55,510 nucleotides of DNA, from NCBI GenBank assembly GCA_030425045.1, contig JAUHVL010000019.1, positions 1 through 55,510 on the forward strand. Direction: 5' to 3'. Both the position numbers and the translations under genes were made by a program. Positions 4,928 to 55,510 of the stretch are shown in pieces. The notes under the pieces were generated by a model. That model was not told the DNA's origin, did not search any database, and was given only the letters and a program-made list of their open reading frames with translations. The stretch's first letter is position 1; every line of letters begins with the position of its first letter. Source of the DNA: a bacterium. GTDB lineage: Bacteria > Bdellovibrionota > Bacteriovoracia > Bacteriovoracales > Bacteriovoracaceae.

Positions 4928-6133
4928 ATGATGCGAAGCGTTCCTGAACTTTTAGCCCCTGCTGGTAGCTTGGAAAAGCTTAAGATGGCCATTAATTATG
5001 GAGCTGATGCTGTTTATTTAGGCGGTCAGAAATATGGGCTACGGTCAGCAGCTGATAATTTTACAAGTTGGGAGCTTAAAGAAGCGGTAGAGTTTGCTCA
5101 CGCCAGATCAGCATTGGTTTATGTTGTACTAAATAGCTTTCTTCACGATCAAGATTTCTCTGGAATTGAATCATTTATTAGAGAGCTTGAGGATTATGGA
5201 GTCGATGCCGTTATCGTCTCTGATCTTGGTATGGTCAGCTTAATCTCTTCCTTATCGTCTATTTCGATTCACCTTTCCACTCAAGCAAGCTGTTTAAGCT
5301 CTTATGGTGCTGAGTTTTGGAAAAAAATGGGAATTACAAGAGTTATTCTAGGAAGAGAAGCTTCGATTGAAGAAGCTAAAAAAATTAAAGAGAAAACAGG
5401 CCTAGAAGTTGAAATGTTTATCCACGGTAGTATGTGCATGTCATACTCTGGTCATTGTGTGATTTCAAACTATACTCAAGGCCGAGATTCTAATCGTGGA
5501 GGCTGTGCTCATAGTTGCCGCTTCGAATACACACTTACATCTGAAAAAGATAACCAAACAGTAACAGCAACAACTTTTATGAGTTCCAAAGATCTCGAAG
5601 GCGTGGCCTTAATTCCACAATTTGCTGAAGCCGGAATTGATTCGATAAAAGTTGAAGGTCGGATGAAGTCGATTCATTACGCAGGGGCCGTTCCTAAAGT
5701 GTATTCACAAGCACTAAAGGAATATCACGATCATAAAGAAATCGATTTAGATTTTATAAAATGGGCAGACAGAGAACTAAGTAAAATAAGTCACAGATCA
5801 TATCATGATGGAAACCTTGTAAGTAAAGCAGGGGAAAAAAGTATTTTTTCAGAAAGAGAAAACGAAGAAAGTGATTATGTAATCGTTGGGCAGGTGCTTG
5901 AAATAGCTGAACAAAAATATTTAGCGATACAAGTAAGAACAGGCTTTAAGCTTGGGGATAATTTGGAAATTGTTTCTTTTTCAAGCCGTGAGAACTTAGA
6001 GTTTCAAGTCAATGAGATATGTGATCTTCAAAAAAATCTATGTGATAAAGCAAATCCTGGAACTGTTGTTTTAATCCCTTGGTTAGCAAACGTAGAGCGA
6101 TTTAACTTAATTCGAATGAGGAAAAAGGCGTGA
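4928..6133 (+). CDS. Peptidase U32 family protein (TrhP-like tRNA hydroxylation)
   Basis: The start is set at the ATG at 4928, 7 bases after GGAGA. An upstream in-frame ATG at 4883 has no ribosome site. Residues 1-300 form the U32 TIM-barrel, opening with PELLAPAGSLEKLKMAI and YLGGQKYGLR. The U32 signature EMFIHGSMCMSYSGHC is at about 162-177, with further cysteines in GGCAHSCRFEY, the cluster family members are thought to use for Fe-S binding. The C-terminal 100 residues match the small beta domain of TrhP/YegQ, which prepares 5-hydroxyuridine at tRNA position 34. It overlaps the next gene by 4 bases (GTGA). Confidence 0.88.
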   Translation: MMRSVPELLAPAGSLEKLKMAINYGADAVYLGGQKYGLRSAADNFTSWELKEAVEFAHARSALVYVVLNSFLHDQDFSGIESFIRELEDYGVDAVIVSDLGMVSLISSLSSISIHLSTQASCLSSYGAEFWKKMGITRVILGREASIEEAKKIKEKTGLEVEMFIHGSMCMSYSGHCVISNYTQGRDSNRGGCAHSCRFEYTLTSEKDNQTVTATTFMSSKDLEGVALIPQFAEAGIDSIKVEGRMKSIHYAGAVPKVYSQALKEYHDHKEIDLDFIKWADRELSKISHRSYHDGNLVSKAGEKSIFSERENEESDYVIVGQVLEIAEQKYLAIQVRTGFKLGDNLEIVSFSSRENLEFQVNEICDLQKNLCDKANPGTVVLIPWLANVERFNLIRMRKKA

Positions 6134-7245
6134 AGTTCGTTACGTTTCTTACCGAAAACTCCGCTAAACAAGAAAGTGATCTCATTCTTTCAACCTATGA
6201 GCTTTCAAAGCATGGTCTTTTTTCACTAAAAGATGGCCTCAAATTGGCCCTCGATAAAAATATTAAAGTCATATTGGAATGGGACATCCTTGTTACTGAA
6301 GACGAATTTTCGTTGATAGATGAAGTTTTTAGTACGTTAGACTTTTCTCAAATTTCCGCAATTAGAGTTCAAGATGTTGGGGCCTTACAGTACGTTCTCA
6401 CCAAAACGGAATTGCCTATTCAATTAATACTTGAATCTGGAAATAGAAATTTAATTGGAATTAAAAAATGGATTTCACTGGTAGGAAATCGGTTGGAGCG
6501 AATAATTTTAAGTCCTGAGCTTGATATGAACGAGCTTGAAGAAATTAAAAAAGAAGTTTCGGTTCCTGTTGAGATTCTTATCTTTGGAAAAATACTTTTA
6601 TTTTATTCACCTCGAAAACTTTTGACTCCTCAGTTTGGTGAAAGAGAAGAAGAAGTATTAAAGGTACAGGGAAAAAGTGAGGAAAGCCCTCATCGTGGTT
6701 TTTCACTCCATGAAAATAGACATGGCACTTTAATGTATAACCCGAAAGATTTAAATTTATTCTCTTATTTAAATGAGATTGAACAAATGGGAATTGAGTA
6801 TTGCCGTATTGATAATCGTGACTTCTCGAGTGAGCTTTCACATTATTTCAATAGCAATGATTTTGAGGCGCTAATAGAACATTATCCCAAAACGTTGATT
6901 AAAGGCTTTTTTCATAAAAACAAAACAGATGTTTTATTTAAGAAATTAAAAAATCAAAAGCTTCTTATTAAAGATCAAAGTTATGTCGGCAATATTGTTA
7001 ATGTCATCAAAAATAAACAAATTGCCATTCAGTTGGCCAATAAAACTCGTGCGCTGATTCCAGGAGATGAACTTGTCCTGTTAACTCCAGAGGGAAAAAG
7101 AAAAGAGTTCACCGTTTCAGAAATTCAAAATATTTCAGGGACACCTGTAGAAAAAACAACAGATGAAGAACTCGTTTTGATTCCGTATCCCGCCAATCTT
7201 TCGATTAAAACGGCCGTTTATTGGAAGGACTCTTTTAAGGATTGA
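6130..7245 (+). CDS. Degenerate U32-like partner protein
   Basis: This 371-residue protein starts at a GTG overlapping the stop of the U32 gene. It follows the same plan: a barrel-like first half, FGKILLFYSPRKLLTPQFG at the point where U32 proteins read GR-x-P-x-N-L-L, and a C-terminal beta domain (GDELVLLTPEGKRKEF) like the partner's. It has almost no cysteines, so the Fe-S/active-site cluster is gone. The likely role is a non-catalytic or substrate-recognition partner of the upstream U32 enzyme, comparable to known U32 pairs that work together. The specific substrate is unknown. Confidence 0.65.
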   Translation: MKFVTFLTENSAKQESDLILSTYELSKHGLFSLKDGLKLALDKNIKVILEWDILVTEDEFSLIDEVFSTLDFSQISAIRVQDVGALQYVLTKTELPIQLILESGNRNLIGIKKWISLVGNRLERIILSPELDMNELEEIKKEVSVPVEILIFGKILLFYSPRKLLTPQFGEREEEVLKVQGKSEESPHRGFSLHENRHGTLMYNPKDLNLFSYLNEIEQMGIEYCRIDNRDFSSELSHYFNSNDFEALIEHYPKTLIKGFFHKNKTDVLFKKLKNQKLLIKDQSYVGNIVNVIKNKQIAIQLANKTRALIPGDELVLLTPEGKRKEFTVSEIQNISGTPVEKTTDEELVLIPYPANLSIKTAVYWKDSFKD

Positions 7246-7968
7246 ATGTTGAAAAACTCTGGAACTCTGTTTTTATTTCCTTCTCCCATTTCTGATAGCG
7301 GTATGATTTCAACTGAAGATAAAGCCTTTTTGTTAGAAAAGTTTCAAGATCAAAACTGCAGATTACTAGTTGAAGACCATAAGCCTGCCCGTCGAAGGTG
7401 GATTTCTTGGGGCTTGCCTCGAGAGGCCATTGATCAGATGACCATGTTTAATGAGCATACCATGGAAGACATTACTCAAGGTTTAATTGGAGATTTGAAA
7501 AATGGGCAAGACATGGTTTTAATGTCCGATGGGGGTCTTCCCGGTTTTTGTGACCCTGGTGCTGAATTAATTTATAAATGTCACACCGAAAAGATAAGGG
7601 TTCATTGTCGTCCTTTTTTTAATTCTGTCATGCTTTCTTTGGTTCTTAGTGGTTTACCTCATAAGAATTTTAGTTTTTTAGGATTTCCTCCCGCCAAAAA
7701 AAATGAACGCATTCAGTTTTTTAAAGATAACCAGAAGAAAAAAGAAACGTTGATCTTGATGGATACACCTTATCGACTTAATCAAATTTGTGAAGAGATG
7801 GAGTTGAGCTTTAAAGACAGAATGTTGTTTTTGGCCATGGATCTAGATAATGATCAGGAACAAACGTGGCTATTACCGATAGCAGAGATCATGAAGAAGC
7901 TAGGGACACAGAAACTGAAAAAGGAATTTGTTGCTATTGTTGGTCCAGCGGGGTTTGTTGGTTACTAG
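7246..7968 (+). CDS. SAM-dependent methyltransferase, RsmI/tetrapyrrole-methylase family
   Basis: The 240-residue protein carries MLMSDGGLPGFCDPGAELI-type sequence near residues 90-108 (LMSDGGLPGFCDPGAELI), the equivalent of RsmI's SDAGTP-x-x-SDPG SAM-binding loop. SFLGFPP and KKETLILMDTPYRL match later RsmI segments. RsmI 2'-O-methylates C1402 of 16S rRNA. This protein is about 40 residues shorter and has LPG in place of TP-(L/A)-(I/V), so it may be a paralogue rather than RsmI itself. It directly follows the U32-like gene (stop and start adjacent). Its 3' end overlaps lspA by 35 bases in convergent orientation. Confidence 0.8.
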   Translation: MLKNSGTLFLFPSPISDSGMISTEDKAFLLEKFQDQNCRLLVEDHKPARRRWISWGLPREAIDQMTMFNEHTMEDITQGLIGDLKNGQDMVLMSDGGLPGFCDPGAELIYKCHTEKIRVHCRPFFNSVMLSLVLSGLPHKNFSFLGFPPAKKNERIQFFKDNQKKKETLILMDTPYRLNQICEEMELSFKDRMLFLAMDLDNDQEQTWLLPIAEIMKKLGTQKLKKEFVAIVGPAGFVGY

Positions 7969-33145: not shown

Positions 33146-33964
33146 TTATTTCTGGCACTTCGGACAATAATAAGTTCCTCGCGTGGCCATAACGATTTTC
33201 TTCACGCTCTCTCCACACATACCACAATCTTGCTGATGAAAAACAACAAGATTATTGAGCCCACCACCATCATCTCCAAAGGCGTCTTTATAGCCACCAC
33301 TAAAGGAAAGCCCTTGGTATTTAATTTGTCCCTCGATAACATCTTTCGTGGCTTTTACAAGCTTGCCGACTTCTACTTTGGTAATCTTGGCAAGCCGCCG
33401 ACTAGGACGAACACCAGCAAGAGCACAAATCTCAGAGGCCATATAATTTCCCACCCCACTAAAATACTTTTGCTCTAACAAAAAGGGTTTGATCTGTTTC
33501 TCGGGGAAACGTTTGATAACACTGTGAAGATAGTCGTCATTGAATTCGTCTTTAGATACATCAACACCAAGCCCATCCATAAACTTAAGAGCGTTAACTC
33601 TTTTATAAAAATACATATTCCCAAAACGACGAGGATCAATATAAGCAAGAAACTTTTTCTGCCCATCTACTAATCCCGTAAATTGCAAATGAGTATGCTT
33701 TTCTTTAACTTTCGTCTCCGAAATTCGCCAAGACCCACTCATCCCAAGATGACTTAAAATATGCTGATCATTTTCCAAAATAAAATTTAAAAGTTTCCCT
33801 TTACGATCAATCTCCAAAATCGTCTTCCCATTCGGATTAAACTCTCGCGACTTCTCTTTCAAAATCGAAGAAACCACCGGTGAGAGCTCCATTTTCTGGA
33901 TCTTGAAAGGGAGGATTTTTGTTAGTTGCGAGCGGATGGTTTCCACTTCGGGTAGTTCGGGCAA
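33146..33964 (-). CDS. mutM: Formamidopyrimidine-DNA glycosylase
   Basis: This is a base-excision-repair glycosylase/AP lyase for oxidised guanine. The 272 residues open PELPEVETIR, giving the catalytic N-terminal proline and E3 after Met removal. K57 in DRKGK is the conserved lysine. A Zn finger with CGMC and CPKC closes the protein. The start here is TTG at 33964, not ATG, because the upstream sequence comes from an integrated element. The 16-base attachment core covers codons 1-6. AGGTG at 33968-33972 may be the new ribosome site. Two other copies of this 5' end in the window still read ATG. Confidence 0.95.
   Translation of the reverse strand: MPELPEVETIRSQLTKILPFKIQKMELSPVVSSILKEKSREFNPNGKTILEIDRKGKLLNFILENDQHILSHLGMSGSWRISETKVKEKHTHLQFTGLVDGQKKFLAYIDPRRFGNMYFYKRVNALKFMDGLGVDVSKDEFNDDYLHSVIKRFPEKQIKPFLLEQKYFSGVGNYMASEICALAGVRPSRRLAKITKVEVGKLVKATKDVIEGQIKYQGLSFSGGYKDAFGDDGGGLNNLVVFHQQDCGMCGESVKKIVMATRGTYYCPKCQK
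33948..33963 (-). other. attL core of element 1, within mutM
   Basis: The 16-base core overlaps the first codons of mutM. On the minus strand it reads TGCCCGAACTACCCGA then mutM. Just outside, element sequence GGTTAGGTGAAATT replaces the old start region, so mutM keeps reading from TTG. An identical core is at 44206 and a 14/16 copy at 54823. Confidence 0.8.
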
Positions 33965-34036: not shown

Positions 34037-34116
34037 TTCCATCAATATGTACCACTTTTGAAGCTTGAAAGCGATACGACATTGCTAAAATTTACTGCTT
34101 CTTCCTGTGTTGTTTC

Positions 34117-34240
34117 CTACTCTTTTTGTTGTTCTACACGAATATGATGCATGATTTTTTCAGAAAAAATCTTTTGATCATCTTCGTTACAAGTAGAGTA
34201 GTGATCAGCAAGCTTTAAGTCTTTGTGGCCATTTTGCTCG
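34117..34240 (-). pseudogene. Tyrosine integrase, C-terminal remnant
   Basis: The minus strand reads NGHKDLKLADHYST, then a helix ending VEQQKE and stop. This matches the end of the intact integrases here: GHKDYKLADHYSKL at the equivalent point of the gene at 45,524. It covers the region of the second catalytic His and the catalytic Tyr, about 40 codons. Everything upstream is missing, cut at the junction with the truncated S41 peptidase. It was probably the integrase of element 1. Confidence 0.8.
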
Positions 34241-42550: not shown

Positions 42551-42868
42551 TTAAACAGGATCAATGATTATTCTTGTTTTCAAGTTGAAGACCTCTTGCA
42601 GGTGATTTATGACAGAGTCGGTAGAAAGCCTTGTTTTATTGTTGATAAAATCTAAAACACATTGGCTTGAAAGTCCTGTTTTATTTGCGAAAGATTTTAA
42701 CCCCATTGATTTGATAGTTTCTTTTAATGCCTGATGAATTGTTAAACCTTCTATATTAATAAGATTTATAATATAGGCTTGAGCAAAATCTAAATCTTCA
42801 AATTGAGCGGCGACTAATTCATTAAAATCTTTGTGTCGATTGACCATGTTTATATCTGATTCCATCAT
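42551..42868 (-). CDS. Antitoxin paralogue (HTH), second copy
   Basis: The 105-residue HTH protein is clearly related to the antitoxin beside it. FEDLDFAQAYIINLINIEGLTIHQALKETIKSMGLKSF lines up with FENLDYAKGYILNMTENEGLDVKDALRETIKAMGLQNF, and the recognition helices follow. It lies 5 bases downstream of the first antitoxin. The tandem pair may be a duplication that adds immunity or regulation. It has no obvious ribosome site of its own. Confidence 0.75.
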   Translation of the reverse strand: MMESDINMVNRHKDFNELVAAQFEDLDFAQAYIINLINIEGLTIHQALKETIKSMGLKSFANKTGLSSQCVLDFINNKTRLSTDSVINHLQEVFNLKTRIIIDPV

Positions 42869-42873
42869 ATTTT

Positions 42874-43182
42874 TTATGCAGCAGCAGTATCATCAAAAAG
42901 TGACAATTTAGCCTTTAGTTTGAAAACTTCATAGATATGCTTTTTAAGCTTTTCTGTACTCCAGTTTTGTCTTTCAGATACAAAGTCAGACACGGCTTGA
43001 ATTGATAAACCAGACTTTTCAGAAAAGTTTTGTAGTCCCATGGCCTTTATTGTTTCACGTAAAGCATCTTTAACATCAAGACCTTCATTTTCAGTCATAT
43101 TAAGAATATACCCCTTAGCATAGTCTAAGTTTTCAAATTTTTGTGCTAACACTTCATCATAGCTTTTATTTCGATTTGCCAT
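42874..43182 (-). CDS. Addiction-module antitoxin (HTH)
   Basis: The start is ATG 43182 after GGAGTAATT, giving about 102 residues; a longer frame from 43245 has no ribosome site. It has the antitoxin plan: a short N-terminal arm, FENLDYAKGYIL (neutralising region), then a helix-turn-helix (NFSEKSGLSIQAVSDFVSER). It overlaps the toxin's 3' end by 17 bases, as in coupled modules with toxin first. Confidence 0.82.
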   Translation of the reverse strand: MANRNKSYDEVLAQKFENLDYAKGYILNMTENEGLDVKDALRETIKAMGLQNFSEKSGLSIQAVSDFVSERQNWSTEKLKKHIYEVFKLKAKLSLFDDTAAA

Positions 43183-43492
43183 AATTACTCCAATACTCTT
43201 TCGCTTTTTCAATGTCACGTTTTTGAGTTTTTTTATCTCCACCAATTAATAATAAAATGAGCTTATCTCCATCTTCACCAAAGTAAACTCTCAGTCCTGG
43301 CCCGTGATAAATTTTTATTTCAAAAACACCATCTTTTAAACTTTTAATGTGTTTTTTTGCTCCACCCTGAGCAACCCTTTGAATGAATCGGTCGACAATA
43401 ATTTGGGCATTCATATCCAAACCATTAACCCAATCAAGAAAGGGAGTCTTATCATTTTCTGTTACATAGTGATCAATCTTTTTAACGGTCAT
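43166..43492 (-). CDS. RelE/ParE-superfamily addiction-module toxin
   Basis: The start is ATG 43492 after AAGGAATAGGG; the protein has 108 residues. The fold pattern fits the addiction-module killer family: FLDWVNGLDMNAQIIVDRFIQRVAQGGAKKHIKSL, VFEIKIYHGPGLRVYFGEDGDKLILLLIGGDKKTQKRDIEKAKEYW. The GPG-x-RVYF and GGDKKTQ motifs are diagnostic of this branch. The family inhibits translation or gyrase. It precedes its antitoxin. Confidence 0.85.
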   Translation of the reverse strand: MTVKKIDHYVTENDKTPFLDWVNGLDMNAQIIVDRFIQRVAQGGAKKHIKSLKDGVFEIKIYHGPGLRVYFGEDGDKLILLLIGGDKKTQKRDIEKAKEYWSNYGKSK

Positions 43493-43611
43493 CCCTATTC
43501 CTTTTATTAAACTACATGAATAAATGTAGTTTGTCAAGATATAGCTTTATACTACTGAAAATAGGGGAAACTATGACATTTCCCCTACCGATTTTTATCA
43601 ATTTAATTTTC

Positions 43612-44056: not shown

Positions 44057-44096
44057 TCACGACTGTCGACACGACTTTCACGACTGAAATCGTGAA
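44057..44096. repeat. Candidate integrase arm sites, right end of element 1
   Basis: TCACGACTG (44057), ACACGACTT (44069) and TCACGACTG (44078) are direct copies, and an inverted TCACGATT is at 44088-44096. They share the core CACGACT with the left end (34018-34036). They sit 110-150 bases inside the attachment core. Confidence 0.65.
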
Positions 44097-44205
44097 ATGA
44101 CGTTAAATATTGTGAGAAAAAATGAAATGACTAAAACGCTAGAAGGCCCATTAACACTGGTAATTCATTGATTTGATTGATGTTTTAAAAGGTCGGATCT
44201 ATTCC

Positions 44206-44221
44206 TCGGGTAGTTCGGGCA
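44206..44221 (-). other. Attachment core between elements 1 and 2
   Basis: The core TCGGGTAGTTCGGGCA is exact to the mutM copy. On the minus strand it lies in ATG CCC GAA CTA CCC GAG GAA TAG (44222-44199): the first five codons of mutM then a stop supplied by the element. Element 1 lies to the left and a second unit, with its own arm repeats 44 bases away, to the right. Confidence 0.78.
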
Positions 44222-44264
44222 TTTGCTTTAATTCCAATAGTTTAAGTCCTAAAAGTGGGCCTTA

Positions 44265-45171: not shown

Positions 45172-45540
45172 ATGAAATTTATTAAAATGCATAACCCAAA
45201 AATCACAATTGCTTTTCTTATAATATTGGCAATCATAATTTTCTTTAGCCGATCTCCTTCCTTAATATTAATAGGTTTACCATTACTTTTTTGGAATAAT
45301 TTAAAATGTAAAATTGGGCTAGGTGAAAAGGAATTGATATTCGATTTGGGTAAGCATGGCACATACTCAATCATAATTTCTTCTATCAAGAAAGTTGAAA
45401 TTAGTAAGAGATATATCTATCTATATTGGGATAATGGAGAAATGATTGATGGACAAAAAATAAGCGGCTATCCTCATAAAAGATTATTATCATTTTTAAA
45501 AGAGAAACTTGATCCTTCATTATTCATCGAATTAGCTTAA
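45172..45540 (+). CDS. Small membrane protein with PH-like region
   Basis: The 122-residue product has a double membrane helix at residues 10-42 (ITIAFLIILAIIIFF; SLILIGLPLLFW). A strand-rich cytoplasmic part follows, ending in a helix (HKRLLSFLKEKLDPSLF), reminiscent of bacterial PH domains. Function unknown. It overlaps the integrase 3' end by 17 bases. Confidence 0.6.
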   Translation: MKFIKMHNPKITIAFLIILAIIIFFSRSPSLILIGLPLLFWNNLKCKIGLGEKELIFDLGKHGTYSIIISSIKKVEISKRYIYLYWDNGEMIDGQKISGYPHKRLLSFLKEKLDPSLFIELA

Positions 45541-46732
45541 TAACATTATCAGGCTTCTCAAATTCAACCCTCTCTTTTTTCTCAACTTCTTCCATGATTT
45601 TTATACTTAAATCTCGTTGATATTCATGATCTAGTTTTGAATAGTGATCTGCTAGCTTATAATCCTTATGACCAGTCATTGCTATAACAGCATCAAGACC
45701 GCCACCTACTTTTCTCGCTAGAGTTGCCATGCCATGTCTCAATATGTGAGTTCCAGAGTAGGGAAGATTGGCTTTTCTATTGGCTGATCTATAATTTACG
45801 AGGATGGTACAGTAGTTTAATGGTTTGCCATTAATATGGAAGACAAATTCATTGTTTGGGATTTTATCTTTTTGCCTTCTTAAAAGAATCTCTCGAATCT
45901 GATCTGTTATATAAGCAGACCTAGGTTCTTTATTTTTAGGATGGGGATTAAGTTCTAAAAAGGTTTTTCTTGATTGATGAAACCTCGCTGTTTCCATGAT
46001 CGTGATTTTACGGTTGATAAAATCAACTCGATGCCATTGAAGTCCTGCTATCTCAGATACCCTTGCAGCAAGAAAGAATTGGAGCTTGGCAAAGTCTCGA
46101 TAGAGTTCAGGAAGATGAGCAAAAAAGTCTAGAGCGTGATCTAGGGTAATCTTCTTTTCTTTAACGGGAATAGCTCGTATAAATCCTAGTTTTTTGTGTT
46201 TAGTTTTGACGGGATTTACTAAATGCAAAGCCTCTTGCTCAAAGGTTTCTGATTGTTTGTACCAATTGAAGATGGTGGTGAACATATTGAGTTCATTGTT
46301 GAGGTTACATCTTTTTGCTCGACCTCTTGAGTTTTGCTCATATTCATCAGATTTAAAGAATTTGACCTGATTTTGTACCCAGCTAGTGACGATTGAGGGA
46401 GTGATAAAGTCCATTGGCAAATGTTCGATGTCTTTTAAAAGAGAGTATCGCCTTTTCCATATAGCTCTAGTCGATGGAGCAAGAGTGGGGAAGTGGTCCT
46501 TTTGGTATTGGGACCAAACTTCCCTAAGAGTGGCGCAATCACTTTTTATGGGAGCTGGTTTTTCAATGTCGCCAGAAAAGTGTTTACGCCAGTTTCTTGC
46601 TTCGGCTAATGAAGTGAAGGTCTTGGTATATTTTTTATTATCAACTCGTTTAACAGCATAATAACGACCAGTATTCTTTTGTTTATAAATACCGGGATGA
46701 GCTTTGAGTTTTAAATAATACTTTTTTCTCAC
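45524..46732 (-). CDS. Tyrosine recombinase/integrase (second)
   Basis: The 402-residue protein has an AP2-like arm-binding domain at residues 15-52 (GIYKQKNTGRYYAVKRVDNKKYTKTF), a core-binding region, and a catalytic domain. That has R in LAARVSEIAGLQWHRVD, HILRHGMATLARK (H-x-x-R) and TGHKDYKLADHYSKL (His and the nucleophile Tyr). It is paired with the excisionase-like gene by ATGA overlap. It is the same length as the integrase at 53,525 but differs widely from it. It is the likely integrase of the second unit. Confidence 0.93.
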   Translation of the reverse strand: MRKKYYLKLKAHPGIYKQKNTGRYYAVKRVDNKKYTKTFTSLAEARNWRKHFSGDIEKPAPIKSDCATLREVWSQYQKDHFPTLAPSTRAIWKRRYSLLKDIEHLPMDFITPSIVTSWVQNQVKFFKSDEYEQNSRGRAKRCNLNNELNMFTTIFNWYKQSETFEQEALHLVNPVKTKHKKLGFIRAIPVKEKKITLDHALDFFAHLPELYRDFAKLQFFLAARVSEIAGLQWHRVDFINRKITIMETARFHQSRKTFLELNPHPKNKEPRSAYITDQIREILLRRQKDKIPNNEFVFHINGKPLNYCTILVNYRSANRKANLPYSGTHILRHGMATLARKVGGGLDAVIAMTGHKDYKLADHYSKLDHEYQRDLSIKIMEEVEKKERVEFEKPDNVIKLIR

Positions 46733-46947
46733 TCGTAGTTACCTTCATCAATCCAGTTGAGAATTTCGTCAGGAAAGAAATAAAGTCGTTTACCCTTCCT
46801 TCGGTGGGGTATTTCTTTTATTTTGTTGTAAATGGTTTGCTTTGCCATTCCCGTTATCTCCATCAAGTCATAAATATTCCAAATTGGCTTTCTTAATTCG
46901 GGAAGGCCAATATCAAGTGGTCGGCCTTCTTGGCAAGTTTGCTTCAT
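46729..46947 (-). CDS. Excisionase-like HTH protein (MerR/AlpA fold)
   Basis: The 72-residue protein has IWNIYDLMEITGMAKQTIYNKIKEIPHRRKGKRLYFFPDEILNWID, a winged helix of the Xis/AlpA/HTH_17 group. It overlaps the integrase start (ATGA) and the stop of the preceding Mom-like gene (ATGA). Its role is likely to direct excision or regulate the element. Confidence 0.85.
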   Translation of the reverse strand: MKQTCQEGRPLDIGLPELRKPIWNIYDLMEITGMAKQTIYNKIKEIPHRRKGKRLYFFPDEILNWIDEGNYE

Positions 46948-47852
46948 TTGACACCTCTCTCTTTAGGGTAGGGTAAACCAGGGCGAATAGATTTAGTTTC
47001 TGGTTTAAATTTGGGATTTTGAGCATAAAACTTTCTCAGAAGCCTTCGTGTCTCACTTTTTGTAGGGCATTTGAGATAAGTATATTTATGCTTTCTTTGA
47101 ACTTTTCTTTTCAAACACCTGTTTTGGTAGTCCTTTGAAGCTTTTCTTAATTGATCAGCCACTTTTATAGGCATTAAGTACCAAAGAACCGTATACCCTC
47201 TAACCCATTTAGGGTCCCACTTAATTCCAAGCTCTTTGGCATATTTCTTATACTGTCCCGTTTTTCTAAAGAGTCTATCGGAGAACCAGCCTCTTTGTGG
47301 ATTATCTGGATCATAGTACTCATTTTTAGTTCCTGAGCCCTGACCTAAATAATAAAACCCACAGGCTTGATAAATTGTTCCTAGTTCGTTGGCGGCCGTG
47401 TCGCTATATCCACTAAAGAATCTAAACTCAGTGTTTTTAACCATCCAGTTGATTGAATTCATAATAAGCCAAGAACCAGTATTTTTTGGAGCCCAGCTAA
47501 TAGTTGCTCCTCTAGCGATAAGCTTTTCTAGGTGAGAGTTCTCTTTGCCAAAAACTGTCGTGAAGGCGTAAGGGGTGGCCATAACAACAACGCCAACAAT
47601 ATGACTTCGATAGGTAGCGATGAATCGGTGTGTGGGTCGAGCTGGCATTTTTCCAAGCCATTCATGTCTTTCTATAAATTTCTTGATATCAATACATTTT
47701 TGAATGTCAGTTTTATCAACATATTCGAACTGAAGATGGTTAACTCTGATTTTTGATGCTCGATCTTTAGTTAGCTTGGCTTTTCTTAGATCTTCTTTTA
47801 GATTTTTCTGTTTTACCTGGTGTTGCCAACAGGTTTTGGCTAGTTCAGTCAT
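46944..47852 (-). CDS. Mom-like GNAT DNA-modification protein (tentative)
   Basis: The 302-residue protein has a GNAT-like core over residues 40-190. THRFIATYRSHIVGVVVMATP and ARGATISWAPKNTGSWLIMNSINWM lead to SGYSDTAANELGTIYQACGFYYLGQGSG, the segment shared with Mom-type proteins that change adenine in phage DNA to a carbamoylmethyl form. A basic tail (QRKHKYTYLKC and so on) may bind DNA. Start ATG after AAGGAGCAACT. It is coupled by ATGA overlap to the excisionase-like and integrase genes. Modification would protect the element's DNA from restriction. The match is by motif only. Confidence 0.6.
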   Translation of the reverse strand: MTELAKTCWQHQVKQKNLKEDLRKAKLTKDRASKIRVNHLQFEYVDKTDIQKCIDIKKFIERHEWLGKMPARPTHRFIATYRSHIVGVVVMATPYAFTTVFGKENSHLEKLIARGATISWAPKNTGSWLIMNSINWMVKNTEFRFFSGYSDTAANELGTIYQACGFYYLGQGSGTKNEYYDPDNPQRGWFSDRLFRKTGQYKKYAKELGIKWDPKWVRGYTVLWYLMPIKVADQLRKASKDYQNRCLKRKVQRKHKYTYLKCPTKSETRRLLRKFYAQNPKFKPETKSIRPGLPYPKERGVK

Positions 47853-47912
47853 AGTTGCTCCTTGTTTGGAACGACTGTGATTCTTTCTACTAGCCGTTAT
47901 TGTTTTTGGTAA

Positions 47913-48038
47913 TTAATCTAGTTTTTCTGTTTTAACCGTTTCTATTGTTGTGGGAATGCCGTTTTTGAATCGAATTGTTATTTCGCCCCAAAAGTTTTGC
48001 TTAATCAGTTTTTTTATTTTTAATATTACTTTTTCCAT
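47913..48038 (-). CDS. DUF2292-like small protein
   Basis: This 41-residue product starts at ATG after AAAGGAGCAAACG. NFWGEITIRFKNGIPTTIET resembles the DUF2292 strand pattern G-x-(I/V)-x-I-x-x-x-x-G-x-x-x-x-I-E. A longer frame from 48164 overlaps the upstream gene and lacks a site. Small proteins of this kind occur in mobile and chromosomal loci; role unknown. Confidence 0.6.
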   Translation of the reverse strand: MEKVILKIKKLIKQNFWGEITIRFKNGIPTTIETVKTEKLD

Positions 48039-48075: not shown

Positions 48076-48552
48076 TTACTCCTTACTTCCTTTATTTGAA
48101 TTTTCATTTGAATTGCTTGTTTCTGAAGAATACTCTTCCTTTGTACCCCCATATCCCCCCTCATCGAGAGAGAAGTGATAATAAGGGTTTTTTCCTTTCA
48201 TATACTTTTTAACTAGATAACTAGGGTCTTTTCCAATTGTTGTGTCGATATATCTCGAAAGTCGCTTACCTAGCCAAGCTGGACGGTCGCTTTTTTGAGC
48301 AACATCAAGAAAGACCTCATCTGGAAGAGCGCCACATAGCTCTTTTGGGCTAAAGGTTTTGATTATGTTTGGCTTGATTTCTTGCCGGTATAAAAAATCT
48401 AGTAAAGATACAATAAAGGGATCAGACTTTGACTTTAATTCCTCTTGATTGGATAGAAAGTCATTAATACCGTTAGCCTTTAAAACTTTATCAATATGAA
48501 ACTGGAACTTTTTAAACTTAAATTGACCAACCTCATTCTTTTTATTCTTCAT
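48076..48552 (-). CDS. Hypothetical protein, end of primase operon
   Basis: The 158-residue product is helical with a Ser/Asn/Glu-rich tail. SPKELCGALPDEVFLDVAQKSDRPAWLGKRLSRYIDTT resembles a winged or helical DNA-binding module, perhaps the C-terminal accessory part of a D5-type helicase. It overlaps the ATPase gene by 11 bases. No family is assigned with confidence. Confidence 0.55.
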   Translation of the reverse strand: MKNKKNEVGQFKFKKFQFHIDKVLKANGINDFLSNQEELKSKSDPFIVSLLDFLYRQEIKPNIIKTFSPKELCGALPDEVFLDVAQKSDRPAWLGKRLSRYIDTTIGKDPSYLVKKYMKGKNPYYHFSLDEGGYGGTKEEYSSETSNSNENSNKGSKE

Positions 48553-49852
48553 ATTGACCTCTCATATATGCCAGTGCTGAAATAATTTCATTACGATGTT
48601 TTTTTACATATCCAAGAACGTCAAAATCATAATCTAACTTGTGAGCTTGAGATGAGTGTAGCGATATGATGACTTGTCTAACTAAAAGATCATGAGAAAA
48701 TACACCCCCATTAAGAGTAAAGCCGATCATAAATGTATTTGGTCTAGAAAAATTATTATTTCCCCCAAGAAGTCTCGCTTTAAATGTTTTTGAAGTAACC
48801 GCTGCTTCCAAAAAAGGGGAAGATACTGTTTGATTGTTGGCACGTCCTTTTATGTTATCAAAAATAACAATATTAGAACTCATTAAACAGGTTACGAGGG
48901 CTTTGGTTGTCTCTTCTTCATTCGATAATGATAGTAATGTTGCCTCAGATCCTTCTGTAATCACAGAAAAGCAATCCATAAGCATTGTTTTTCCTAAACT
49001 TTGAATATCTCCTTTTATGGCAATCATTGGATATTCTCCAATAAAATCCAGACGATCAAACGATCCAAGAAGTAGACCTAGGTAATTATGTTTGTCAGTT
49101 TCGGATTCAAAAGGAAAAGAGTTCAGAAATCGGTTTAAGTATTTCATATTACCTTTGCTCGGAGTAATTTGATCGCCTAGGTAATAGAAGTTTTTTTCTG
49201 GATGATAACCTGGTGCAGATAAACATTTATTTTTAGAAAAAATTGGAAATTTTGAAAAGTAGTCAATTGGTTTTAATGGCTTCAAGTTCTCGCTATTCTG
49301 AAGAGTAATGTTCATTAAATTTATAGGTATTGGATAGTGAGGACCAAGTGAACTTTCACCATCTTTATTAATACTTTCATTTCTACAAGAAATATAATTG
49401 GAAAAATAAAAGGCAGCATCTTTGGGGTCAGCAAGGATTCTGGGGTTATTTTCTGGTATAACTATGAATGATCTTTCTTGAGAATTTCTAAAGCATTTAC
49501 TAGATATTTTATTAATTAATTTTACTACTCGTGCTTTAATACTATCGATAAGTTCATTGATTACTAGATCGCCACCACTTTCTATTGCAGGTTTTGAAAT
49601 ATTCCAATCATAACGATTATGCTTTACTCTTTTCTTGAAGTTCCGTTTGTTTTTGGTAACGAATTCATCAATAAATGTATTTGCTAGCGATTCTTCTATT
49701 GGAGCTAGTGCTAATGCAAGGTCATGCCCTTTTTCAACTGCCTTTTTAACATTATAGTTTTGTGGCTTTATTAAAATTGCAATAGGCTCATTAATACGAT
49801 TAAGTAACTCTCTTCCACCCTGAGACAATATAAAGTCATCTACACCACTCAT
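48542..49852 (-). CDS. Primase-linked ATPase (D5/SF3-like helicase)
   Basis: The 436-residue protein has P-loop-like IKGDIQSLGKTMLMDCF near residue 270. The Walker A here has Asp at the position usually held by Gly/Ala, which is unusual. SSNIVIFDNIKG serves as Walker B. The plan resembles helicases linked to integrated-element primases. It overlaps the TOPRIM gene (ATGA) and the next gene by 11 bases, so the replication proteins are translated together. Likely drives self-replication after excision. Confidence 0.65.
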   Translation of the reverse strand: MSGVDDFILSQGGRELLNRINEPIAILIKPQNYNVKKAVEKGHDLALALAPIEESLANTFIDEFVTKNKRNFKKRVKHNRYDWNISKPAIESGGDLVINELIDSIKARVVKLINKISSKCFRNSQERSFIVIPENNPRILADPKDAAFYFSNYISCRNESINKDGESSLGPHYPIPINLMNITLQNSENLKPLKPIDYFSKFPIFSKNKCLSAPGYHPEKNFYYLGDQITPSKGNMKYLNRFLNSFPFESETDKHNYLGLLLGSFDRLDFIGEYPMIAIKGDIQSLGKTMLMDCFSVITEGSEATLLSLSNEEETTKALVTCLMSSNIVIFDNIKGRANNQTVSSPFLEAAVTSKTFKARLLGGNNNFSRPNTFMIGFTLNGGVFSHDLLVRQVIISLHSSQAHKLDYDFDVLGYVKKHRNEIISALAYMRGQYEE

Positions 49853-50433
49853 TCGTCCTCCTCTAATCTGAGATCGATTACCTTTATTATTGCACCTCGA
49901 TCCGTCAGTTCATTGGCAAACCTCATCATTCCCTTTCTTGTATGATGATTAGTGAAAAAGTCTGTGTCAGGAAGCCAAATGATCTCCCTATCTTTGAATG
50001 GTATTGCATTCCAATTGTGTGAAAGTTCTAATTTTCCATTTTCATCTTTTTGTCCCCAGTTCCAACAACCAGGATATGAAACCATTGGATAGTTCGAAAG
50101 TTCTTTTATCTGATGTAAAGCAATCAGCTTCTTTTCTCCTTCAGTAATGAGTAGCATTAGTTCTGGATTAAGAATTTTTACTATATCAACGGGATGAAAA
50201 AAGCAGGTAAGACTTGTGCCTTTAGGTTGAAGATATTTTACCTTCCTTCCTGGCTCTTTTTTATTTTCTAAGGGCGGAACAAGTTTAGTTCTATCAGGTA
50301 ACTTTTTTCCATCTATTTCATAATAGGGAAGCGCAATACCTTTACTCACAGATTTAAGCCCAAAATATTTGGCAGACTCTTTCGTTATTCCTGATTCTTC
50401 GCTTAGAATTTTTAAATGTTCTTTTGAGATCAT
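49849..50433 (-). CDS. TOPRIM-domain primase protein (DUF3854-like)
   Basis: The start is ATG 50433 after GGGAGAAAGCA, forming ATGA with the upstream stop; 194 residues. NPELMLLITEGEKKLIALHQI is the TOPRIM Glu motif, EIIWLPDTDFFTN the DxD motif. The fold sits in the position of the polymerase domain of a DnaG-type primase. It is split from its zinc ribbon and its helicase, each on its own gene. Confidence 0.78.
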   Translation of the reverse strand: MISKEHLKILSEESGITKESAKYFGLKSVSKGIALPYYEIDGKKLPDRTKLVPPLENKKEPGRKVKYLQPKGTSLTCFFHPVDIVKILNPELMLLITEGEKKLIALHQIKELSNYPMVSYPGCWNWGQKDENGKLELSHNWNAIPFKDREIIWLPDTDFFTNHHTRKGMMRFANELTDRGAIIKVIDLRLEEDE

Positions 50434-50672
50434 TGCTTTCTCCCAAAAGGCCAACATTTATTATAGTAAAGTGAACCGATTAATTGTTGAACATCACACC
50501 CTTTGAAGCAGTGAATAAGTGGAAATGGTTTTGTTTCGGTATTAAATGATAAACAACGCTTTTTTTGTTTCCCTGGTCTATTACATAATGGACAATATCC
50601 GTAATATTGACCGTGTTTGCTTCCTGGTTTTGCCTTAGTGTGGTGAATTAAGTTTTCTTTCCAATAGTCCAT
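50430..50672 (-). CDS. CHC2-like zinc-ribbon primase part
   Basis: The 80-residue protein begins after GGGAGGGCCCA. YGYCPLCNRPGKQKKRCLSF and FPLIHCFKGCDVQQLIG form a four-cysteine zinc ribbon (C-x2-C and C-x3-C) as in primase N-terminal domains. It is translationally coupled to the TOPRIM protein. Together with the following genes it makes a split primase-helicase. Confidence 0.8.
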   Translation of the reverse strand: MDYWKENLIHHTKAKPGSKHGQYYGYCPLCNRPGKQKKRCLSFNTETKPFPLIHCFKGCDVQQLIGSLYYNKCWPFGRKQ

Positions 50673-52264: not shown

Positions 52265-52558
52265 TCACTTCTCAAGTTTTTCAATGATTAATTTATAAGT
52301 GGTTTCGCCATCTTTAAACGTTGTACTCATAATGACTTCTGTGCCCCTTTCTTTTTCGTTTAATAACAGCTCTTCAAGGGTGATGTTAAAGTAGTCAGCA
52401 ATTCTCAATAGAGCAGGCAACTGTTTACCGCTAGGGGATGTTTGACCAATGACCCAACTGTGAAGAGTCGAATAGGAAACATCACATGCCTTAGCAATTT
52501 TCTTTATTTCTCGATCAGCCAAAAGCCTTTTTAATGTTTCATCAATCTTAAGTTTCAT
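52265..52558 (-). CDS. XRE-family repressor-like HTH protein
   Basis: The 97-residue protein has an N-terminal HTH (IKKIAKACDVSYSTLHSWVIGQTSPSGKQLPALLRIADYF). Residues 60-97 form a small C-terminal extension. The ribosome site is poor. Position between recombinase and the exported-protein run, and the palindromes upstream, suggest it controls the element. Confidence 0.82.
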   Translation of the reverse strand: MKLKIDETLKRLLADREIKKIAKACDVSYSTLHSWVIGQTSPSGKQLPALLRIADYFNITLEELLLNEKERGTEVIMSTTFKDGETTYKLIIEKLEK

Positions 52559-52597: not shown

Positions 52598-52673
52598 AAT
52601 CCTGAGTGCTGAATTTTAATCTTGTGTTCAGGATTTTCTTTGCCCCTAAAACGTTCGTTATGTGACCGTCACA
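52598..52673. promoter_or_regulatory. Inverted repeats upstream of the repressor
   Basis: AATCCTGA (52598) pairs with TCAGGATT (52628-52635) across 22 bases. A second perfect 6+1+6 palindrome, TGTGAC C GTCACA, is at 52661-52673 and overlaps the recombinase stop. Either may be the repressor's operator. Confidence 0.5.
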
Positions 52674-53274
52674 CAAATTCGGAGTTTACCCTTTTAGGAC
52701 CACTAAGCTCTCTCGCAACAGTTGTCTTTGAAACACCGACTAGCTTTGCAATTTTCCTTTGGGAGTAACCTCTCTTGCTAAGTTCATTTATTAATTCAGA
52801 GTTACGTGTTTTAGGCCTTCCTAATTTTTTACCTCTATTTCGAGCCGCAATTAATCCAACCTTAGTCCTCTCGCTTAAAATATCACGCTCAAGTGCGGAG
52901 AGAGCAGAAATGATTACAAACATTGCTTTTCCAATTGGGGTGTTGGTGTCGATTTCTTCACTAATACTAGTAAAGCGAATACCTAATTGATTAAAGGTTT
53001 CTAAAGCTTCGAGAAGATGCTTGGAACTCCTTGCAAAGCGGGAGAAGGAAAACACAATGATGTGCTCAATTTTACCGTCATAGCAATCTCTCATCAGTTT
53101 GTTGAGAGAAGGTCTTGAAGAGCGAGTTCCTGTTATTCCAAAATCTTCATAAAAATGAGAGTTTTTAATGTTCTTTCTGGCGCAATATTGTTTTGCAGAC
53201 AATTTCTGAGCATCATGTCCATTTTCTTGCTTTTGTAGGCTCGATCGTACGTATATAGCTGTAATTTTATTCAT
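52669..53274 (-). CDS. Serine recombinase (resolvase/invertase)
   Basis: The 201-residue protein has the resolvase catalytic domain (AIYVRSSLQKQENGHDAQK, with the nucleophile Ser in VRSS), IIVFSFSRFARSSKHLLEAL and ALERDILSERTKVGL. The C-terminal HTH is GYSQRKIAKLVGVSKTTVARELSG. It starts after GGAGGATTAA. The size fits the small resolvase/invertase class. It may invert or resolve parts of the element. Confidence 0.92.
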   Translation of the reverse strand: MNKITAIYVRSSLQKQENGHDAQKLSAKQYCARKNIKNSHFYEDFGITGTRSSRPSLNKLMRDCYDGKIEHIIVFSFSRFARSSKHLLEALETFNQLGIRFTSISEEIDTNTPIGKAMFVIISALSALERDILSERTKVGLIAARNRGKKLGRPKTRNSELINELSKRGYSQRKIAKLVGVSKTTVARELSGPKRVNSEFV

Positions 53275-53524
53275 TTAATCCTCCAAAATGGGCCATTGTA
53301 CTTTTTGCTTAACCCTCCGTGTGTGTGATGACTCAGGAATCCTACGTGTTTTTCATTTTCATTATTTAAGCGGATAGGAATAAATTTATAAATAGGTAGG
53401 TCACGTAGCGTTATTTTCATGTTGGCCACATCTTAAATGAGTACTGGATTTAAAAAAAGGCCCTCTGGCATTTTTTCTTGGTAATTAATGCATTTTTACT
53501 TGCATTCTTTCATTGGAGAAATAG

Positions 53525-54733
53525 ATGGGAAAAACCGTTAAAAATCCATACCTTGATACCAAACACAAAGGTATCAAAAAGCACTATAAGACTGGTCACT
53601 ATCGTGCCAGAAAGAAAATCAATGGTGTAGACCACAAGAAGACATTCGCTAACATTAGAGATGCTATACAATGGCGCTATACTTTTAATGGAATTAATAG
53701 TGTAGTTGGTGGCCATACTATTAAAAAGAATTCTTCTAAACTGGCCTATGTTTTGAGTCGCTTTCAAGATTTACACTTTCCTTCCCTTAGACCTCAAACT
53801 CAAAAGAAGATGATTCAACAGTATCGTCTACTTCATGATTTGGAACACTTTGAGATGCACGAAATTAACTCCACACTTTTAAGTGAGTGGATAATTCAAA
53901 AAGTTGAGCATTTCAAACTATTGCAAGCTGAGGGAAAAGGAAGTGGTGTTCAAGCAAGATGTTCACTGGACACAGAGTTGAAGATTCTAAAGCAAGTCTT
54001 TAGCTGGTACAAAGAAGAAGCTGAATTTGATAATGAGTCTAAAGATGTATTTTGTCCTGTTAAGAAAAGACATTACGCTCTTGGCAGTATCAAAAAGAAG
54101 GTCAAGCGTGACAAGAAGATTCCACCAAGTGATGTTCTACTTCTCTTTGAGAACTTGGAACCTCTCTATCGAGATTTGGCCATCATTCAGTATTTTTGTG
54201 CTGGAAGAATTGGAGAGACTCTTGGTATTCAAAAAGATTCGATTGATTTTAAAAATCGCATACTGAATATCTCTCACACGGCCATCTTCAACTCAAGCAA
54301 AACTTTCTGGTATTTGAGTGACTTAACCAAAACTGGTGAAGATAGAACAGTTCATATCAACGACACTTTAAGAGATGCTCTACTCTCTCGAATAAATGAC
54401 GGAGATAAGAACTGTAGTTTCGTTATACAGTATCAAGGTAAACCCTTGAACTACGGAACGGCACTTCTTCACTACAACAAGACACTCAAAAAACTTGGTC
54501 TACCATATTCTGGAACTCACATTCTCAGACATGGTTGTGCCTCTCTTGCCAGAACACTAACAGGTTCTCTTGATGCTTGTATGTCTATGACTGGTCATCG
54601 TGACATAAGAGTAGCTGAAAATTACGCCGAGTTAAGTGACAAAGTCAAAATCGACACCTCACTACAAGTTGAAGAACACCTCAACAAATTGAAAAAAGCT
54701 GGTCCAAATTCTGGATTTCAGCTCATTCAATGA
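53525..54733 (+). CDS. Tyrosine recombinase/integrase (third, right end)
   Basis: The 402-residue protein has an AP2-like arm domain (GIKKHYKTGHYRARKKINGVDHKKTF). Catalytic motifs are CAGRIGETLGIQK, HILRHGCASLARTL and TGHRDIRVAENYAEL. Start ATG after GGAGAAATAG. The stop is 88 bases before an attachment core at 54822, in the same relative order as the remnant and attL of element 1. It faces outward from the region, opposite to the integrase at 45,524. The 53,275-53,524 gap before it holds no gene I can support. Confidence 0.93.
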   Translation: MGKTVKNPYLDTKHKGIKKHYKTGHYRARKKINGVDHKKTFANIRDAIQWRYTFNGINSVVGGHTIKKNSSKLAYVLSRFQDLHFPSLRPQTQKKMIQQYRLLHDLEHFEMHEINSTLLSEWIIQKVEHFKLLQAEGKGSGVQARCSLDTELKILKQVFSWYKEEAEFDNESKDVFCPVKKRHYALGSIKKKVKRDKKIPPSDVLLLFENLEPLYRDLAIIQYFCAGRIGETLGIQKDSIDFKNRILNISHTAIFNSSKTFWYLSDLTKTGEDRTVHINDTLRDALLSRINDGDKNCSFVIQYQGKPLNYGTALLHYNKTLKKLGLPYSGTHILRHGCASLARTLTGSLDACMSMTGHRDIRVAENYAELSDKVKIDTSLQVEEHLNKLKKAGPNSGFQLIQ

Positions 54734-54747
54734 CTAAAAATCCGTGA

Positions 54748-54765
54748 ATCGGGGCTTATCGGGGC
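54748..54765. repeat. Candidate arm sites, right end
   Basis: ATCGGGGC occurs at 54748 and 54758 with a 10-base period, 57 bases before the core at 54822. Position and spacing match the arm repeats at the left end of element 1, but the sequence differs. Confidence 0.55.
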
Positions 54766-54821
54766 CCATAGAATATGATAACTTCGAGTAACGTTAATAA
54801 TTACAAAAAGTTAGAAAAGAT

Positions 54822-54838
54822 ATGCCCGAACTTCCAGA
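54822..54838 (+). other. Third mutM-type attachment core, opposite orientation
   Basis: ATGCCCGAACTTCCAGA is the mutM start (M P E L P) with 14/16 identity to the other cores, but reads on the plus strand. It is followed by TGAGTAA, closing a seven-codon frame MPELPDE. No mutM body follows, so the site is a relic, a rearranged end, or an att for a different mutM allele. Confidence 0.6.
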
Positions 54839-54981
54839 TGAGTAAATTTTCAAAACGTTGCTTGAATAATTTTAATCACTTAAGTAACAAAAAACTAGCA
54901 TCGCAAACTTTTTCTATTTCACATTACTTCATTTAATTTAACGTAAGTTCATGAAAAAGTCGGACCCATCTTCAGACACCA

Positions 54982-55010
54982 TGGACAGGTATACCATACT
55001 ATGGTATACT
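54982..55010 (+). promoter_or_regulatory. higBA promoter with 21-base palindromic operator
   Basis: TGGACA (54982-54987), a 17-base spacer and TATACT (55005-55010) form the promoter. The arms GTATACCATA and TATGGTATAC around a single C (54989-55009) make a perfect palindrome across the spacer and -10, the usual layout for antitoxin autorepression. The RNA would start near 55016. Confidence 0.78.
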
Positions 55011-55031
55011 CAATACAGAAAAAGGAAGCTC

Positions 55032-55331
55032 GTGGAAATAATTAGTTACGGCAACAAAGAAACTGAAAACTTTGACCTAAAAGGAAAACTAAACAAAAGG
55101 TGCAAGTGGGCTAATATTGAAAAGATAGCAAGGCGAAAGTTAGATATTCTCATTTATGGCCATAGTATTGAAGACTTTAAAATACCCCCTAATAACAAAT
55201 TTGAATGGCTTAAGGGAAACTTAAAAGGATTTGCATCAATTAGAATAAATGACCAATGGAGAATCATCTTCAATGTTAATAAGAAGAACCAACTAGAGAA
55301 CGTCGAGATTATCGACTATCACCGAGGTTAA
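55032..55331 (+). CDS. higB: HigB-type toxin
   Basis: The 99-residue product begins at GTG 55032, after AAGGAAGC and just past the promoter; an upstream ATG at 54951 precedes that promoter and is rejected. The HigB/RelE-like mRNA-interferase pattern is clear: KIARRKLDILIYGHSIEDFKIPP, FEWLKGNLKGFASIRINDQWRIIFNV, VEIIDYHRG, with the family's W-x-I-x-F and D-Y-H ending. It cleaves mRNA on the ribosome. It is one base before higA. Confidence 0.9.
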   Translation: MEIISYGNKETENFDLKGKLNKRCKWANIEKIARRKLDILIYGHSIEDFKIPPNNKFEWLKGNLKGFASIRINDQWRIIFNVNKKNQLENVEIIDYHRG

Positions 55332-55332
55332 G

Positions 55333-55510
55333 ATGGCAAAAAGAACAAGAAGACCAACATCTGTAGGAGAAATGCTTAAAGAGGAGTTTCTTATTCCTCT
55401 AGAACTAACTCAAAGAGACTTTGCAGAACATCTTGGTCTAGAAGTAAAAGCGATTAATCGATTAGTAAACAATAGAACATCCATCACTCCACTACTTGCT
55501 TTGAAAATGT
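55333..55510 (+). CDS. higA: HigA-type antitoxin (cut by window edge)
   Basis: About 59 residues are seen. TSVGEMLKEEFLIPLELTQRDFAEHLGLEVKAINRLVNNRTSITPLLALKM is the XRE-type HTH of HigA antitoxins (GE-x-L-x-E-E-F-L and the NNRTSITP loop). It binds the toxin and the palindrome upstream. The C-terminus lies beyond the window. Confidence 0.92.
   Translation, partial: MAKRTRRPTSVGEMLKEEFLIPLELTQRDFAEHLGLEVKAINRLVNNRTSITPLLALKM

Follow-up and report, generated by a model that had tools for sequence, protein, structure and literature searches.

Why, in the chromosome of a Bacteriovorax-like bacterium, does a mobile DNA element carry a relative of the DNA-modifying enzyme Mom right before the genes that move it? 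Mom catalyses N6-adenine acylation, and Mom proteins fused to nucleases have been described in jumbo phages (PMC7824862); Mom-like genes have also been found among the accessory genes of marine Charybdis elements (PMC12324425). Here we report the analysis of one such locus in a window, the whole stretch of 55,510 nucleotides that was analysed, which corresponds to positions 1-55,510 (forward strand) of contig JAUHVL010000019.1 in assembly GCA_030425045.1 (Bdellovibrionota; Bacteriovoracia; Bacteriovoracales; Bacteriovoracaceae). A sequence-only reading of this DNA had proposed that an integrase, an excisionase and a Mom-like modifier form one coupled operon at 45524-47852.

The mom-xis-int genes

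The interval 45524-47852 consists exactly of three contiguous open reading frames on the minus strand. The run begins with a mom-like gene (46944..47852; 302 aa; predicted DNA modifier of GNAT fold, PF25680), whose ATG is preceded by an AAGGAG-type ribosome site, and continues with a xis-like gene (46729..46947; 72 aa; HTH_17 winged-helix DNA-binding protein) and the gene of a tyrosine integrase of a mutM-targeting family (45524..46732; 402 aa). All three genes had been said to overlap by ATGA, which is true of mom and xis (46944-46947); xis and int overlap by GTGA (46729-46732), the start codon of int being GTG. Translational coupling across the whole run is plausible from these junctions. 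The integrase was assigned to PF00589 (E 1.5e-13) and has all catalytic positions (R, H-x-x-R, H, Y). The 72-aa protein matches HTH_17 (E 6.9e-7) and, weakly, the PHROG family 'excisionase and transcriptional regulator' (E 6e-5); its putative name, Xis, is taken from family and position, both of which equal those of a Xis-type domain that is fused to Mom in relatives.

Upstream of mom, at a distance of 60 bp, lies a gene for an 83-aa protein; downstream lie xis and int. A search for a Com-like activator overlapping mom gave no candidate, as the 83-aa protein matches nothing in Pfam and no PHROG family convincingly. PADLOC detected no defence system around Mom, and nearby genes gave only weak partial matches. 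Exactly two copies of the 12-mer TTGGTAATTAAT are present in the window, one just 5' of mom (47906-47917) and the other just 5' of a second integrase gene (53478-53489); it is a possible shared operator.

The Mom protein

The 302-aa protein matches PF25680 (Mom) with an E-value of 2.4e-9 and 37.6 bits, above the curated cut-off of 27.1, and the Mom-like family PHROG_1384 with an E-value of 3e-17. An AlphaFold model built from an alignment of 46 relatives (A2) had a mean pLDDT of 92.5. The best solved match of this model in Foldseek was phage Mu Mom (8bv8, the inactive mutant S124A; 2.7e-8), and VIA-align aligned the same structure over 192 residues with a Z of 16.1, from which there is a clear drop to the other GNATs (Z <=12.6, about 146 residues). 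Searching the solved structures with this alignment, by sequence alone, returned nothing relevant. In the sequence alignment, with the residues not superposed, S124 and D149 of Mu Mom correspond to S127 and D151 of the window protein, both invariant across the 46 relatives in A2, and the C-terminal YPK is common to both proteins.

By family and by modelled fold, the 302-aa protein is thus best described as a true Mom. The structure-based comparison with Mom, proposed earlier as a check, returned the GNAT/Mom fold, and the segment SDTAANELGTIYQACGFYYLG, quoted when the protein was called Mom-like, lies at residues 150-170. Mu Mom and the window protein are only about 14% identical, so that the substrate and the precise chemistry are read from the family.

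The integration site

A common core, TCGGGTAGTTCGGGCA, emerged from comparison of the DNA beyond integrase genes; read on the opposite strand, it gives the first codons of mutM (ATG CCC GAA CTA CCC GA; M-P-E-L-P-E). The target gene in the window is mutM/fpg, encoding formamidopyrimidine-DNA glycosylase (33146..33964, minus strand; PF01149, H2TH, zf-FPG), and an att core lies in its start codons (33948..33964, plus strand). The same core, TCGGGTAGTTCGGGCAT, recurs at 44206..44222 (plus strand), again as the reverse complement of the first mutM codons, and is the proposed left end of the Mom element. Exact copies of the core number four in the whole genome, two in the window (33948 and 44206) and two on contig C19, where they flank a further element, 11.6 kb long, whose integrase is broken; with up to three mismatches, three copies were observed in the window against 0.05 expected from shuffles. 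Also located between the att cores of that further mutM element (L034, 5439-17092) are an AbiC-like gene and a restriction gene of GmrSD type.

In related genomes, more than 20 integrases directly adjoin mutM with this core, and most of them are 54-61% identical to the window integrase, which by this comparison is a member of a family that targets the start codons of mutM. Every insertion puts new DNA in place of what lay upstream of mutM (loci L168-L189, >20 genomes), and the elements have in common a right-end region of about 134 bp that recurs in relatives. In the window this region ends the neighbouring element (44072..44205, plus strand; it recurs beside att in relatives and on contig C19), and the left end of the first element carries residual coding sequence for the C-terminus of a mutM-type integrase (34111..34236, minus strand). 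With the core copies, the mutM-adjacent integrases and the recurring right-end region, the window holds a tandem array of mutM elements. The non-Mu setting that had been claimed for the three genes is borne out in the form of a mutM-targeted integrative element.

The core at 44206 is taken as the start of the Mom element and is separated from int by three small genes, which is unusual among mutM-type integrases. On the other side of the run, a gene for an HTH_3 repressor-like protein (52265..52558, minus strand) and one for a small serine resolvase/invertase (52669..53274, minus strand), both common to other mutM elements (the resolvase in L197 and L202), recur in the nearest mutM elements, so that the Mom element reaches at least 53.3 kb. 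No right att core in direct orientation was found in the contig, which ends at 55510, and the mobility of the window copy is therefore putative. Between 53.5 and 55.0 kb, a second mutM-type integrase (53525..54733, plus strand; 39% identical to the first, on the opposite strand), a degenerate core with two mismatches beside it (54822..54838, minus strand) and the right-end region of another mutM element (54839..54972, minus strand; about 80% identical to contig C19 beside its att core) are all inverted. The whole stretch 53525-55510, with its HigBA-bearing right end, is inverted relative to the rest of the array, as a result of either a rearranged array or an assembly fault. A junction of contigs C61 and C19 via their HigA pieces was not found; the pieces have no overlap and their reading frames do not join directly.

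As to other target sites, no tRNA is present within the window. An integron cassette array (attC) was considered for the repeat at 44070-44235 and rejected, as its single-strand fold is no better than that of shuffles (z 0.34) and mutM elements have this very repeat as their right end. In the neighbouring element, a Gp49-type toxin-like gene is followed by two similar small genes (42551-43537), resembling a duplicated antitoxin.

The replication genes of the Mom element, all on the minus strand, comprise a 436-aa replication protein with primase/helicase resemblance (48542..49852; PHROG_10537, 29234 and 19930), which has longer relatives in two genomes of the family, and a 202-aa piece of a DUF3854 TOPRIM-type primase (49849..50457; PF12965, E 2e-9). 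The adjoining gene (50430..50672) encodes a small protein of 80 aa, known by its sequence with no family assigned, whose CxxC pairs make it a possible primase zinc finger. Sequence comparison did not link the window helicase to genes of the nearest mutM elements. No FtsK/coupling ATPase or relaxase, both of which relatives have, was detected among the window genes tested, and no packaging gene was seen with the primase/helicase-like genes, in an element that is cut by the contig end.

Recurrence of the arrangement

A Mom match was found in 11 of the 129 genomes of the source's family and in four further genomes of the phylum; the Mom-bearing genomes belong mainly to the Bacteriovoracaceae and Halobacteriovoraceae (Bdellovibrionota). 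A tyrosine integrase lies at most three genes downstream of Mom at all 13 Bdellovibrionota loci (11 genomes), counting only those with downstream DNA; seven of their integrases were identified by Pfam. Most junctions at these loci are overlaps of 1-4 nt or gaps of under 6 nt. As the arrangement recurs at 13 of 13 bacterial loci of the Mom clade, it is more than chance.

At seven of the 13 loci, one of them with a frame break, Mom is fused to a C-terminal Xis-type HTH domain. Homology links six of these tails to the Xis-like proteins that L015 and L016 encode separately (E 1e-26 and 1e-22), and in an AlphaFold model of one fusion, of modest confidence (pLDDT 69.8), a separate HTH domain follows a disordered linker. 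The coupling of int and xis with a Mom-type modifier, which had been proposed from this single locus, is thus real and conserved, and at seven loci it is covalent. RHS/YD-repeat genes are frequent neighbours of the Mom elements with tandem integrases (L015, L017, L021, L026 and L164) and may serve as their target.

Relatives of this Mom are also encoded by 421 viral contigs in IMG/VR, and no integrase was present beside Mom in any of the 80 that were retrieved. Relatives of the tandem integrases were not found in viral contigs. Two contigs (L216 and L217) have relatives of the mutM integrase, in both cases with no Mom and with an att core that follows closely on int, at about 70-85 bp; in L217 (35.5 kb) the integrase occupies 5962-7182 and the core is at 7255. 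Temperate phages therefore seem to use the same mutM site.

Phylogeny of Mom and integrase

The Mom tree unites the bacterial proteins in a single group with weak support (65/79), within which the window Mom pairs with that of L043 (100/98). The integrase of L043 is unrelated to the mutM type and lies next to a Prim-Pol/AAA protein. The other Mom that has a mutM-type integrase, at L044, groups with the Moms of the tandem-integrase elements (97/86). The integrase tree places the two mutM-type integrases that accompany Mom not as sisters but in separate supported groups (99/97 and 98/98) among relatives that have no Mom. From the incongruence of the two trees it follows that Mom has been joined to integrases of at least three lineages, and on two occasions to the mutM type.

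Mom occurs in three replication settings, with FtsK and a Rep-like protein, with Prim-Pol/AAA, and with a DUF3854 primase and a helicase-like protein, and its place just ahead of xis-int is kept across these settings and integrases. Either Mom was captured repeatedly or one old pairing has swapped its integrases, and the junction persists in both cases. The bacterial Mom clade may derive from one joining with later integrase swaps, which would mean fewer independent pairing events. Among about 22 mutM-type elements only 2 have Mom, which is hence dispensable for integration.

Discussion

Among the closest known systems is com-mom of phage Mu, with which the window Mom has in common the family (PF25680), the fold, the aligned active-site serine and aspartate, and the C-terminal YPK. 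Unlike in Mu, the window has no recognised Com-like gene, its Mom is about 60 aa longer and linked to a tyrosine integrase and Xis rather than to the genes of a transposing phage, and relatives of this Mom are fused to an HTH domain. The Moms of tailed phages such as Vibrio phage 501E54-1 and of the 421 IMG/VR contigs belong to the same long Mom subfamily, with 41-53% identity over nearly the whole length, but had no integrase beside them in the 80 contigs examined.

The notability that had been claimed for the arrangement is tempered by a precedent from 2011. The integration modules of Dehalococcoides ssrA islands carry a Mom homologue of 270 aa, and the authors suggest that the element, once excised, might be modified by products of the module (PMC3146451). 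A Mom homologue is thus present within the integration module of a site-specific island in both cases. The Dehalococcoides islands, however, have the serine recombinases DsiB/DsiA and target ssrA, with Mom several genes from the integrase and no Xis coupling or fusion described, whereas the window element combines a tyrosine recombinase with mutM. In most of the related Mom elements, an FtsK/SpoIIIE ATPase and a Rep-like protein are encoded ahead of Mom-Xis-Int. Integrative elements with FtsK and Rep follow the logic of AICE or Tn916-like elements; the window element differs from them in lacking FtsK and having primase/helicase genes. The open literature that was searched, which leaves most subscription papers outside, yielded no account of an integrase family inserting at the mutM start, of a mom-xis-int operon or of Mom fused to Xis, and within it the Xis fusion and the tyrosine-integrase operon with Mom appear to be undescribed.

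With moderate confidence we propose that the coupled mom-xis-int run makes Mom at excision, masking the mobile DNA from restriction. One transcript would yield Mom, Xis and Int together, and Int and Xis would excise the element from the mutM start codons. Mom, made simultaneously, would attach an acyl-derived group to N6 of adenines, a chemistry assumed by analogy with Mu, and the excised or transferred copy would arrive in the next host already masked from restriction enzymes. Where relatives make Mom and Xis as one polypeptide, the modifier would be tied still closer to the excision complex. These may even be bifunctional excision factors that bring their own DNA-masking enzyme, so that the departing DNA gets modified, with the coupled genes of the window doing likewise as two proteins; this stricter version we regard as doubtful.

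Mom could also be plain anti-restriction cargo at a permissive spot between the replication genes and xis-int, its coupling having no regulatory meaning. Its absence from most mutM elements would fit, as would the other cargo that is common in such elements (HigBA, Abi-like genes, RHS neighbours), but we consider this unlikely given that Mom keeps one position, at near-zero spacing, with unrelated integrases and replication modules, and is fused seven times to a Xis-type domain. The fusions, together with the location of mom on the 5' side of xis, could instead point to a role in recombination, in which Mom, with Xis, would bind or modify DNA at att and set the direction of the reaction or make excision one-way. 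Closely related integrases with Xis exist that have no Mom, however, and the phage relatives of this Mom have no nearby integrase, which makes such a role quite improbable. We give very little credence to the idea that the Mom fold was kept for another substrate (RNA or a host protein) or for superinfection control. GNAT relatives have many substrates and the identity to Mu Mom is low, but among the GNATs the match to Mu Mom is both the longest and the strongest, the active-site serine of Mu is invariant, and YPK is retained at the C-terminus.

The proposal that Mom is made at excision and masks the element thus builds on the gene order, the family and fold of Mom with its invariant serine, the target site, the recurrent pairing and the fusion, to which it adds co-transcription, timing at excision, DNA as the substrate and protection as probable properties. 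Mom enzyme, excision factor and target site are all small and defined. Restriction is a main barrier to gene transfer. Linking a masking enzyme to the excision switch, even within a single polypeptide, would be a simple way around this barrier; if this is true, the known role of Mom would be widened from phage DNA to integrative elements.
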